DNA of 64,000 nt from Dyadobacter sp. 50-39 (GTDB lineage Bacteria; Bacteroidota; Bacteroidia; Cytophagales; Spirosomataceae). Shown here in pieces: positions 17,879-31,900 of the stretch (the first letter of the stretch is position 1; the number at the start of each line of letters is the position of its first letter). A program made the translations under genes and the position numbers. The notes below the pieces were generated by a model, which did not search any database, was not told the DNA's origin, and saw only the letters and a list, made by a program, of their open reading frames with translations. The DNA is taken from NCBI GenBank assembly GCA_001898145.1, contig MKSR01000047.1:372001-436000 (forward strand). The letters run 5' to 3'.

Positions 17879-19063
17879 ATGATTACGAATTCCGATATAT
17901 TTTCGATGCAGACAGGTGACCAGGTACCTGTAACCACGTATAAGGCTGCCCGGTCAGTTGCCGGGCTTGTGGCCAGTCATTTCGAGCGGCATCATGATGC
18001 GGTTTCCAAATATTACGAGCAGGAACTTGCTCCCCGGCCCGATGCGCGGATCGTTGAAGCGATTATCGATACGACATTCTGGGCGAGCCTTCGCAGGGAA
18101 GAGGGACGTTCACCGAAAGTTTCGATCGCCTATCTACCACCCGAATCTGCCGAGCATCCGCTGATTTTTGCCGAAAAGCTGACGCTGAGCGCCAACACGC
18201 TGACCAAGCTTGCGCCGGCGGTAGAGCGTTCGGGTATTCACCTGGGCGTTTGGCTGGAAGACGGCGAGTTGCGTATTTGGGGCACCACACGGGTAATTCC
18301 GGGTTTGTGTTTCGTACTCGAAGTAATCGAACCGGGAATGCTGGTGGTCAAGCATCGAAGGGTGGAGGGCTTTGGCAAATTTGTGAATGTGGCCGTATTG
18401 AAAGGAGACCAGGTCAAGATTGTTAATGAAGAGAGCCGCAAGGTGAAAGATTGTCCCTCATTGATCAACTCGCTGATGGGATTTTCATCCACTACATTAT
18501 GGAGCGATTACCCAAATCTGCTTGTGCAACTGGCCGCTTCCATGCGCAGCCACGAGCGGGGTGGGATATTGCTGGTAGTTCCCAAAGGTAAAGACCGCTG
18601 GCGCGATTCAATCATCCATCCGATCACTTATGATGTGCAACCGCCATTCTCTGAATTGGCCGACCTGCACCGAAAATATGTAGAGGATCCCAACCCGATC
18701 ACCTGGCAGAACCAGTTCAGCTCGGCTGTCGCCAATATGGCCGGTCTTACAGCCGTTGATGGCGCCACGATCATTAACGACCGTTACGAACTGCTCGCTT
18801 TCGGCGCGAAAATCGGCAGGGCGCAAGGTGCAAAGCCGGTTGAAGAAATCCTGATCACCGAGCCGGTAATCGGCAACGCAGCCATGGTAGTACACCCCGT
18901 GCAGAACGGCGGTACACGGCATTTATCGGCTGCACAGTTCGTCTACGATCAGCGCGATTCCATTGCGTTAGTTGCCTCTCAGGACGGCCGCTTTACCATT
19001 TTTTCATGGTCTAAATGCGAGAATATGGTGCAGGCGCATCGCGTGGACGCGCTGCTGCTATGA
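17879..19063 (+). CDS. DisA_N/DAC-domain protein (diadenylate cyclase-like) with N-terminal sensor-like domain
   Basis: The protein has 394 residues from ATG 17879; a GTG at 17804 is a possible longer start. The last ~130 residues match the diadenylate cyclase fold: a DGA motif in LTAVDGATIINDRYELLAFG, then a GTRH motif in NGGTRHLSAAQFVYDQRD and the strand IALVASQDGRFTIFSW. Canonical cyclases read GTRHR; here Leu replaces the second Arg. The first ~250 residues resemble the DACNV-type sensor domain described with such cyclases (from memory of the family). Product would be c-di-AMP from two ATP, cytoplasmic; no membrane helix. It converges on dinB with a 6-base overlap of ends. Activity is unproven. 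Confidence 0.8.
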   Translation: MITNSDIFSMQTGDQVPVTTYKAARSVAGLVASHFERHHDAVSKYYEQELAPRPDARIVEAIIDTTFWASLRREEGRSPKVSIAYLPPESAEHPLIFAEKLTLSANTLTKLAPAVERSGIHLGVWLEDGELRIWGTTRVIPGLCFVLEVIEPGMLVVKHRRVEGFGKFVNVAVLKGDQVKIVNEESRKVKDCPSLINSLMGFSSTTLWSDYPNLLVQLAASMRSHERGGILLVVPKGKDRWRDSIIHPITYDVQPPFSELADLHRKYVEDPNPITWQNQFSSAVANMAGLTAVDGATIINDRYELLAFGAKIGRAQGAKPVEEILITEPVIGNAAMVVHPVQNGGTRHLSAAQFVYDQRDSIALVASQDGRFTIFSWSKCENMVQAHRVDALLL

Positions 19064-20185
19064 TCCGAACGGGAAGAGTTCGAGCTGCTCAGGATCCTTG
19101 TATTTACGGGACCTGACCTCCGGTTCATGGAAGTTGGAAAGTGAAATCCCGAGCAGCCGCACCGCTTTTTGTTCCATATCGAGCTTTTCCAGCAGTTGCT
19201 TGGCAGTGTCGGTAATGGTGTCCAGGTCGCCGATCGGATGGGCGAAGGAATGATTTCGGGTGATTTGGGTAAAATCACTGAACTTGACTTTCAACGTGAC
19301 TGTCCGGCCCTTCAACTGATTTTTTTCAAGGCGATTGGCAACCGTTACGCCAATGCGGTCAAGCTCCTTATTCATTTCTTCGGGTGTGGTAAGGTCGTAG
19401 GTGAACGTGTCCTCGGCGCCCAGTGATTTTGTCTCCCGGTGCGTTTGTACCTCACGGTCATCGATCCCCCGCACGATTCGGTAAAAAAAATGTCCTGTTT
19501 TTCCAAAATGGCTGACTAGCTCTTCTTCCGTGAGTTTTTTCAGGTCACAACCTCTGAATAGCTGCATTCCTTTCATTTTGTCAGCTGTAACTTTCCCTAC
19601 GCCATGAAACTTTTCAACGGGCAGCTGATCCATGAAGCTTTCTATTTTGGAAGGGCCAATGAAGGTCAGGCCATCAGGTTTATTGATATCCGAAGCGATT
19701 TTAGCGACAAACTTATTGACCGACACGCCCGCAGAAGCAGTCAGATTCAGCTCGTCCCTGATGGACTGCTTGATCTGCCTTGCAATATCCATCGCTGAAC
19801 CAATACCCATTTTGTCATTGGTCACATCCAGATAGGCCTCGTCCAGTGAAAGCGGCTCGATCAGGTCTGTGTACCGCGAAAAAATCTCTCGGATGCTTCT
19901 GGAAACGGCTTTATAGACCTCGAATCGCGGATGGACAAATATGATTTGAGGACAGAGTTGAATGGCCTGCCGGGACGGCATCGCCGACCGCACCCCAAAT
20001 TTACGCGCCTCGTAGCTGGCCGTTGCTACCACACCGCGGCCAGTGGGGGACCCCCCGACAGCCAACGGTTTGCCGCGGTATTCTGGAAAATCGCGCTGCT
20101 CTACCGACGCGTAGAAGGCATCCATATCTATATGGATGATCTTGCGGACCGGCTTGACGTAGGAGGCTTCCTGCATAAACAGCAA
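19058..20185 (-). CDS. dinB: DNA polymerase IV (Y-family translesion polymerase)
   Basis: The protein has 375 residues, slightly longer than the E. coli enzyme (351). Catalytic carboxylates are in IHIDMDAFYASVEQ (Asp20, Asp22) and SLDEAYLDV (Asp115, Glu116). Helix-hairpin-helix motif VEKFHGVGKVTADKMKG and the little-finger domain (SLGAEDTFTYDL, NSFAHP-like region) follow. The C-terminal end QLELFPF (367-373) fits the beta-clamp-binding motif QxxLF. It copies past damaged bases. It is a single gene, convergent with the diadenylate-cyclase-like gene. No LexA-type box was recognised in the 148 bases upstream. Confidence 0.96.
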   Translation of the reverse strand: MLFMQEASYVKPVRKIIHIDMDAFYASVEQRDFPEYRGKPLAVGGSPTGRGVVATASYEARKFGVRSAMPSRQAIQLCPQIIFVHPRFEVYKAVSRSIREIFSRYTDLIEPLSLDEAYLDVTNDKMGIGSAMDIARQIKQSIRDELNLTASAGVSVNKFVAKIASDINKPDGLTFIGPSKIESFMDQLPVEKFHGVGKVTADKMKGMQLFRGCDLKKLTEEELVSHFGKTGHFFYRIVRGIDDREVQTHRETKSLGAEDTFTYDLTTPEEMNKELDRIGVTVANRLEKNQLKGRTVTLKVKFSDFTQITRNHSFAHPIGDLDTITDTAKQLLEKLDMEQKAVRLLGISLSNFHEPEVRSRKYKDPEQLELFPFGS

Positions 20186-30247: not shown

Positions 30248-30288
30248 ACGGATGACTGTTGATGGCAGTCAGGTAAGGTTCATCCGTT
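30247..30288. terminator. Hairpin between convergent nucleotidase and antiporter genes
   Basis: Arms AACGGATGA (30247-30255) and TCATCCGTT (30280-30288), with an inner GACTG/CAGTC pair. There is no good T-run on either side, so it may protect 3' ends rather than terminate. It overlaps the antiporter stop codon. Confidence 0.4.
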
Positions 30289-31900
30289 ACTCGATATGCA
30301 GAAACTGCTGCCTGACCTTTTCTTCTTCCAGGTCTAGCTGGGCCAGGTGTTGGCGGATAATTTCCTCCTCGTAGGTTTCTTTTTTATTGAATTGATGCAG
30401 GATGTGCCGCTTATGCTCGAGGAGCTCTTTGTTGATTTCCTGAAAGCGTGCAATGTAGGCATGGCCGGCTTCCTCGACCTCTGATTCACGCACATGGTCC
30501 AGAAAGCCGATGTCGCTTTCCAATTTAAATTTCAGGCTCTGCAAAAGCTCATTGTCGTCCACCTCGCCGGCAAATTTTGAATTGATCATATCCAGTGAGG
30601 CCTTCGCAAGTTTCCTGCGAATGATCACGTCCTGCTCCTGCGCCGAAACCGAATAATCCCTTTCTTCTACTCCCATCAGCCTGACTACTGCCGGAAGGGT
30701 GAGCCCCTGGAAAACAAGTGTAACCAATATCACTACGAATGTAATGAACAAGATCATACTCCGTTGCGGAAAGGGTTGCCCGTTGTCGAGCAACAGGGGG
30801 ATGGACAGCGCCGATGCAAGCGAGACTACACCGCGCATTCCGGCCCAGCCAAAAATGAATGGCATACGAATGCCCGGGCTGCTGTCGGCAGTTTTGATGA
30901 AACGGCTGATGAACACGGTGAAGATAGACGAGCCCAATGTACTCGCGATGCGGGTCACAATCACGACCGCCGAGATAATCAGGCCGTATTTGATGGCTTC
31001 TCCCAGAGACGCCTGCCCGAATCCCTGAATGATCACTGGCAGTTCGAGCCCGATAAGCATGAACACAATTCCGTTCAGCACGAAACCTACGGTTGACCAT
31101 ACATTAATGCCCTGAATGCGGCTTAGATGGCTCAGGATGTTTTGCTGGTTGCGCGAAAGGAAAAGGCCACCCGTTACCACTGCGATCACGCCCGAAAAAT
31201 GGAATTCCTCAGCGGTTATATACATGGCATAGGGCGCTACGAAGGTCATGATTGTGTCAATGCTGGGTGTCGTAGGAAGCCAGCGAAGAATGGCGTAAAA
31301 GATTAGCGCGATTCCCAACCCGACCACGAAGCCCATGATGATCACAATGAAAAAGCTGCCGATCGCATCGGTGAGCACAAAGCTTCCCGAAGCAACTGCT
31401 ACCAGCGCAAACCGGAAGACGATCAGCGAAGAGGCGTCATTGAGCAGGCTTTCCCCCTCGGCAATGGTGATGAGCCGTTTGGGCACTTTCACGTTCTTGA
31501 GAATAGAGGTGGTAGCAACCGCGTCGGGTGGTGAAATTATCCCGCCCAGCAGGAAGCCCAGCGCGAGCGTAAACCCCGGTATGATCGCCTGTGATACGTA
31601 TGCGATCACACAAGAAGTGAAGATCACAATAATAAACGCGAACGAGCCGATAACCCGGCGCCATTTCCAGAAATCTTTCCATGACGTCTGCCATGCCGCC
31701 TCGTAAAGCAATGGAGGAAGAAATATCAGAAATATGAGCTGCGGATCAATCTCCACGGACGGGAGTCCGGGAATGAGGCTCAGTGCAAGCCCCCCAAGTA
31801 CGAGTACGATCGGGTAGGCAATTCTGATCCTTTGCGACAGCATGACCAGAAACATGATCACCACTACAAGCGATAGGTAGAGGATAATGGATTCGTGCAT
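30287..31900 (-). CDS. CPA1-family Na+/H+ antiporter
   Basis: The protein has 537 residues. About 12 membrane helices cover residues 5-400. Family marks include FLIFLPPLLYEAAWQTSW, the transport-site region LGGIISPPDAVATTSILKNVKVPKR, EGESLLNDASSLIVFRFAL and FGWAGMRGVVSLASALSIPL. The cytoplasmic tail of about 120 residues is charged and helical (coiled-coil-like). It exchanges Na+ (or K+/Li+) for H+ across the inner membrane. It follows the P450 gene by 20 bases on the same strand, so they are likely co-transcribed. Confidence 0.94.
   Translation of the reverse strand: MHESIILYLSLVVVIMFLVMLSQRIRIAYPIVLVLGGLALSLIPGLPSVEIDPQLIFLIFLPPLLYEAAWQTSWKDFWKWRRVIGSFAFIIVIFTSCVIAYVSQAIIPGFTLALGFLLGGIISPPDAVATTSILKNVKVPKRLITIAEGESLLNDASSLIVFRFALVAVASGSFVLTDAIGSFFIVIIMGFVVGLGIALIFYAILRWLPTTPSIDTIMTFVAPYAMYITAEEFHFSGVIAVVTGGLFLSRNQQNILSHLSRIQGINVWSTVGFVLNGIVFMLIGLELPVIIQGFGQASLGEAIKYGLIISAVVIVTRIASTLGSSIFTVFISRFIKTADSSPGIRMPFIFGWAGMRGVVSLASALSIPLLLDNGQPFPQRSMILFITFVVILVTLVFQGLTLPAVVRLMGVEERDYSVSAQEQDVIIRRKLAKASLDMINSKFAGEVDDNELLQSLKFKLESDIGFLDHVRESEVEEAGHAYIARFQEINKELLEHKRHILHQFNKKETYEEEIIRQHLAQLDLEEEKVRQQFLHIE

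Follow-up and report, generated by a model that had tools for sequence, protein, structure and literature searches.

In a 64,000-nucleotide stretch of Dyadobacter sp. 50-39 (Bacteroidota; assembly GCA_001898145.1, contig MKSR01000047.1, positions 372,001 to 436,000; hereafter the window), the gene at 17879-19063 on the forward strand probably encodes a soluble diadenylate cyclase (DAC) of DisA-like fold that, judging from its sequence and structure model, would make cyclic di-AMP (c-di-AMP) with a variant active site and serve as a second source of this nucleotide beside CdaA. Its product combines an N-terminal DACNV domain with a C-terminal DAC domain, a family (here DACNV-DAC) that is already catalogued in Pfam. 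The motifs DGA and RHR are described in the literature as the signature of diadenylate cyclases; here DGA is present, while the second motif retains Arg and His and carries Leu349 at the position occupied by Arg in canonical enzymes. The open frame begins with ATG and comprises 394 codons followed by a stop, its start codon being uncertain, as residues 1-15 show low model confidence and little conservation. Its features are as follows.

17879..19063, forward strand: DACNV-DAC gene, 394 amino acids
17966..18418, forward strand: N-terminal folded domain, residues about 30-180, containing Pfam DACNV (49-137) and a DAC-like fold
18230..18253, forward strand: SGIHLGVW, residues 118-125, proposed counterpart of PLHDGAVI, with Leu at the Asp position
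18350..18361, forward strand: KHRR of the N-terminal domain, residues 158-161, placed by the alignment of homologues and one single-sequence alignment
18449..19054, forward strand: C-terminal DAC domain, residues 191-392, placed by structure model and structural matches
18758..18766, forward strand: DGA, residues 294-296, with Val, not His, directly before it
18911..18925, forward strand: GTRH-L, residues 345-349 (GTRH 345-348 at 18911-18922; Leu349 at 18923-18925)
18977..18988, forward strand: SQDG, residues 367-370, counterpart of SEET/SEQT in CdaA

An earlier note, made from the letters of the sequence, had recognized in the C-terminal domain a DAC fold with DGA and GTRH in the right order, behind an N-terminal domain of the DACNV kind. 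All of this was borne out: the two motifs follow each other as described, the structure model matches DAC entries among the matches listed, its superposition on DisA suggests that DGA and GTRH lie close together, and DACNV (PF21751) scores 117.2 bits in a Pfam scan against a curated cut-off of 27. Inside the C-terminal DAC domain, some 40 residues (251-292) are inserted.

The strongest argument for catalysis comes from conservation. A search of the genome collection returned 559 candidate stretches, 517 of which hold a DACNV-DAC protein, and the best 80 loci were kept. Alignment A2 (59 rows) comprises the window protein and 58 of these loci, leaving out 18 from Dyadobacter, three from Mucilaginibacter, and one from Pontibacter; alignment A1 has 12 rows, with members down to 51 % identity. 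D294 and R347 are invariant across all 59 rows of A2, as is DGA as a whole, whereas the residue after GTRH is Leu in 49 rows, Phe in eight, Met in two, and Arg in none. A1 agrees on this residue, with GSRH in L034 and L042. Both alignments give fairer counts than a pattern search that required G[TS]RH and was therefore blind to motif loss: it returned 102 distinct proteins with Leu, Phe, or Met in 100 and Arg in two (L044 and L045), as well as four DGV readings, two of them again L044 and L045, while L107 and L112, both among the best 80 loci, escaped it and read GTRHL by eye. The Leu that the earlier note had marked as a departure from a conserved Arg is thus, as far as the aligned sequences tell, a shared family trait and not an oddity of the window gene, Arg being present in the distant type represented by L044 and L045. 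Across 17 DACs of three groups (main DACNV-DAC, the L044/L045 type, and the L155-L157 group), ten columns are invariant, including Asp-Gly of DGA, the first Arg of RHR, and S-x-D-G. For Leptospira CdaA, an excerpt of the published work reports that Ala at D172 (DGA) or R203 (GxRHRxA) abolishes activity and that S222 exchanged for Ala retains 47.5 % (PMC12974146); R203 most likely corresponds to the first Arg of RHR, since it lies 19 residues from the Ser, as the first Arg does in CdaA of B. subtilis.

Strong purifying selection acts on the gene, which, like its recurrence in other genomes, speaks against a product of chance. The ratio of nonsynonymous to synonymous substitutions (dN/dS) against seven close relatives is 0.017-0.035 for the whole gene, lower in the DAC part (0.009-0.027, residues 212-394), and 0.026-0.044 in residues 1-189 with the disordered start included, all of these values being rough at dS >1. 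The distribution of the family is patchy: it occurs in 39 of 59 related genomes and in 36 of 37 within the genus (the sole miss is a genome 91 % complete), in 14/296 genomes of the class, and in 12/392 of the phylum. The nearest loci belong to Dyadobacter fermentans and its kin, with 91-96 % identity in the first eight.

As to how the protein would work, we infer that the C-terminal DAC domains of two molecules face each other, each binding ATP, probably with Mg2+, because Val and not His precedes DGA; according to an excerpt of the Leptospira study, His precedes DGA in CdaA-type enzymes and not in DisA-type enzymes, which use Mg2+ (PMC12974146). The facing domains would then condense two ATP into c-di-AMP, with catalysis by Asp294 and Arg347, whereas Arg at the third motif position would be dispensable in this family. 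The N-terminal domain would tune the cyclase activity, and the protein may complement housekeeping CdaA by supplying additional c-di-AMP under particular conditions.

Several results weigh against this proposal or lend it no support. PF02457 (DAC/DisA_N) scores only 14.8 bits on the whole window protein (E 0.022, residues 340-371) and 17.7 bits on its C-terminal part (E 0.0027), both under the cut-off of 27, which none of the seven DACNV proteins scanned reaches (highest: 22.2 bits, from L136 with its C-terminal part); nor does any DACNV gene figure among the PF02457 matches listed for 49 carriers. The lack of a significant DisA_N match, which the earlier note had named as a ground for refutation, is thus half borne out: the Pfam score falls short of the cut-off, yet the structure model matches DAC entries among the matches listed. 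Profile comparisons were unconvincing, both with Bacteroidota CdaA (A2: E 0.04, probability 1.3 %; E 0.01 in a second comparison) and with the DACNG/DACNH group (E 0.0077; probabilities of the CdaA and DACNG/DACNH comparisons 1-5 %). A sequence search of the PDB with the window protein or profile A2 gave no DAC and weak unrelated matches only, the eight weak matches of profile A7 included four DAC chains (E 0.32-1.5), and NCBIfam showed no match to the window protein up to E 1. In the literature searched, we found no biochemistry for the family and neither the name DACNV nor a paper on the subject for the names DACNG, DACNH, DACND, and DACNK. Published RHR mutants, as reported in excerpts, change all three residues together (PMC3328451, PMC13022847) and therefore do not show the third Arg to be dispensable. 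Furthermore, a canonical-scoring DAC (PF02457 at least 127 bits) is present in 49 of 49 carriers tested (39 relatives and ten further genomes, a count that does not take in the later finds G502, G669, and G682), so that DACNV-DAC is there an addition to that enzyme, not a replacement. The window genome itself has one DAC of the CdaA kind (C47:279069-279422, motif GFRHR). Overall, the protein appears from its sequence to be DAC-like in its working, but judged strictly, by the PF02457 cut-off and a complete RHR, it falls outside the canonical DACs.

Among the loci kept, PF21751 proteins of Dyadobacter, Mucilaginibacter, Pontibacter, Adhaeribacter, Rufibacter, and others share the two-part build, and no difference between the main DACNV-DAC group and the window protein was seen. 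L044 (genome G317) and L045 (G136) represent a second, distant type with DGV and GTRHR instead of DGA and RHL; both occur in genomes that also carry the main type. In DisA (3C1Y, 7Y0D, 9Y9Y) the DAC domain is N-terminal and reads RHR, whereas here it is C-terminal with RHL, and neither the DisA linker nor the helix-hairpin-helix domain was found (Pfam up to E 1 gives DACNV and weak DAC only). CdaA/DacA (4RV7, 6HUW) has N-terminal transmembrane helices, HDGA, and RHR; the window protein, in contrast, reads VDGA and RHL and looks soluble by hydropathy and predicted strands, its most hydrophobic 19-mer (139-157) falling in such strands. L157 (= L131, G047), L155 (G047), and L156 (G423) also have a C-terminal DAC whose motif is changed after the key Arg, with "probable sensor" domains in front. 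Their motif is GSRYNSA or GARYNSA, with Tyr-Asn for His-Arg, unlike RHL; their DAC lies over the PF02457 cut-off (39.8-43.8 bits), and L131, the one scanned, reads DACNG-DACNH-DAC, sensor domains different from DACNV. The genomes concerned (G047, contigs C26 and C22; G423) also hold a canonical DAC and a DACNV-DAC. Leu after GTRH recurs in the DisA of Ca. Acetothermum autotrophicum (GTRHLTA), which, as far as the excerpt of PMC10086821 goes, differs by DRA for DGA and by its DisA architecture.

Since the earlier note had left open whether the protein makes c-di-AMP or merely binds it, a receptor has to be considered, in which the C-terminal DAC binds c-di-AMP (or ATP) supplied by CdaA and passes a signal via the N-terminal domain. 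Leu at the third RHR position, the sub-threshold PF02457 score, and the canonical DAC of every carrier tested, which would leave a second enzyme unneeded, speak for this scenario. However, a catalytic Asp would be superfluous in a pure receptor, whereas D294 and R347 are constant throughout A2, and both positions are required in CdaA (the Arg position by the correspondence proposed above; PMC12974146). Several DAC genes per cell are, moreover, ordinary, with three in the genus Bacillus according to an excerpt of PMC4568413. Synthesis is hence favored by the sequences over binding only, because the catalytic Asp and Arg-His are invariant in A2, and the receptor appears unlikely. It is more improbable still that the altered site makes another product, for example, a different cyclic or linear dinucleotide: the changed third residue and the insertion at 251-292 would fit, but the remaining conserved motif residues are standard and no base-specificity residue could be mapped.

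Cyclic dinucleotide systems are often organized as operons, and the gene might accordingly sit beside a constant effector gene in an operon for defence or signalling. The retention of neighbours within a genus could be taken as a sign of this: among 33 Dyadobacter loci, 27 have a dinB gene after DACNV-DAC, and a gene for a small membrane protein adjoins DACNV-DAC in 13 Mucilaginibacter loci and four loci of metagenome-assembled genomes. We nevertheless consider such an operon very improbable. With neighbours called by a longest-frame rule (at least 80 amino acids), no neighbour family present in at least six of the best 80 loci occupies a constant position in two named genera, and 63 of the 75 loci with both neighbours lack a co-directional gene within 100 bp on either side (present in 12/75). 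No PADLOC family matches the window protein up to E 1, and no match was found on plasmids, nor on viral contigs with two peptide patterns. The gene is thus mostly a stand-alone unit without a fixed partner gene. In the window, a divergent ABC transporter and then two glycosyltransferases lie upstream, and downstream a dinB-like polymerase gene (19058-20185) stands tail to tail, its 3' end overlapping the DACNV-DAC stop by six bases, with an M43 peptidase gene beyond.

The earlier note had seen no known c-di-AMP receptor or phosphodiesterase nearby. This agrees with a scan at E up to 1e-5 that covered 9 of the 44 other long frames of the window, namely the six closest to the gene and three more distant ones. 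A sodium/proton exchanger gene at 30287-31900 of the window gives Pfam Na_H_Exchanger alone at E up to 1e-5, and no RCK_C at the same threshold; in other bacteria, related transporters are among the targets of c-di-AMP. Elsewhere in the window genome, the PgpH-type domain PF07698 has no match and DHHA1 has three; L160 (G000:C8:152676-152921), a 395-aa frame with DHHA1, is a candidate DHH-type c-di-AMP or pApA phosphodiesterase.

The N-terminal domain, which the note had called a dedicated sensor in keeping with the Pfam label "Probable sensor domain", may be something else. Its model matches DAC structures above unrelated folds, which raises the tentative possibility that DACNV is a decayed DAC and the protein a tandem of a pseudo-cyclase and a working cyclase, with HDGA of canonical CdaA turned into HLGV and a basic KHRR patch kept. 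K158 and H159 of this patch are invariant in A2 and R160 and R161 almost so, and one single-sequence alignment pairs KHRR with RHR. The pairing of SGIHLGVW with PLHDGAVI, made by eye and in one single-sequence alignment, is not statistically significant; hhalign of the N-terminal part gave E 0.88 against CdaA and E 0.37 against its own DAC, 16-42 % of permutations were equally good in an order-permutation test of strand similarity between the two domains, and 34 of 60 shuffles in a column-shuffled profile alignment. The pairwise sequence test is weak for the C-terminal DAC as well (mean z 1.3). A Foldseek comparison of the N-terminal model with viral models found nothing at E up to 0.001 and no DAC among the 50 matches listed. 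Such an inactive domain could form a head-to-head pair with the active one, or it could serve as a binding site for ATP or c-di-AMP; in this way the enzyme could be kept off until nucleotide levels shift. Other DACN "sensor" domains, for example, DACNH, might have the same origin. In DACNH, a DAC-like motif order is visible by eye.

Second-messenger signalling in Bacteroidota is described in an excerpt of PMC9259658 as largely unknown, and surveys relying on the Pfam DAC cut-off would not count DACNV-DAC, which falls under it. Should DACNV prove to be a decayed DAC, the protein would offer a simple model for gating of c-di-AMP synthesis from within. Moreover, the third Arg is missing from every aligned row although the remaining catalytic residues are retained, and such a family would reveal which of the RHR residues are truly required.
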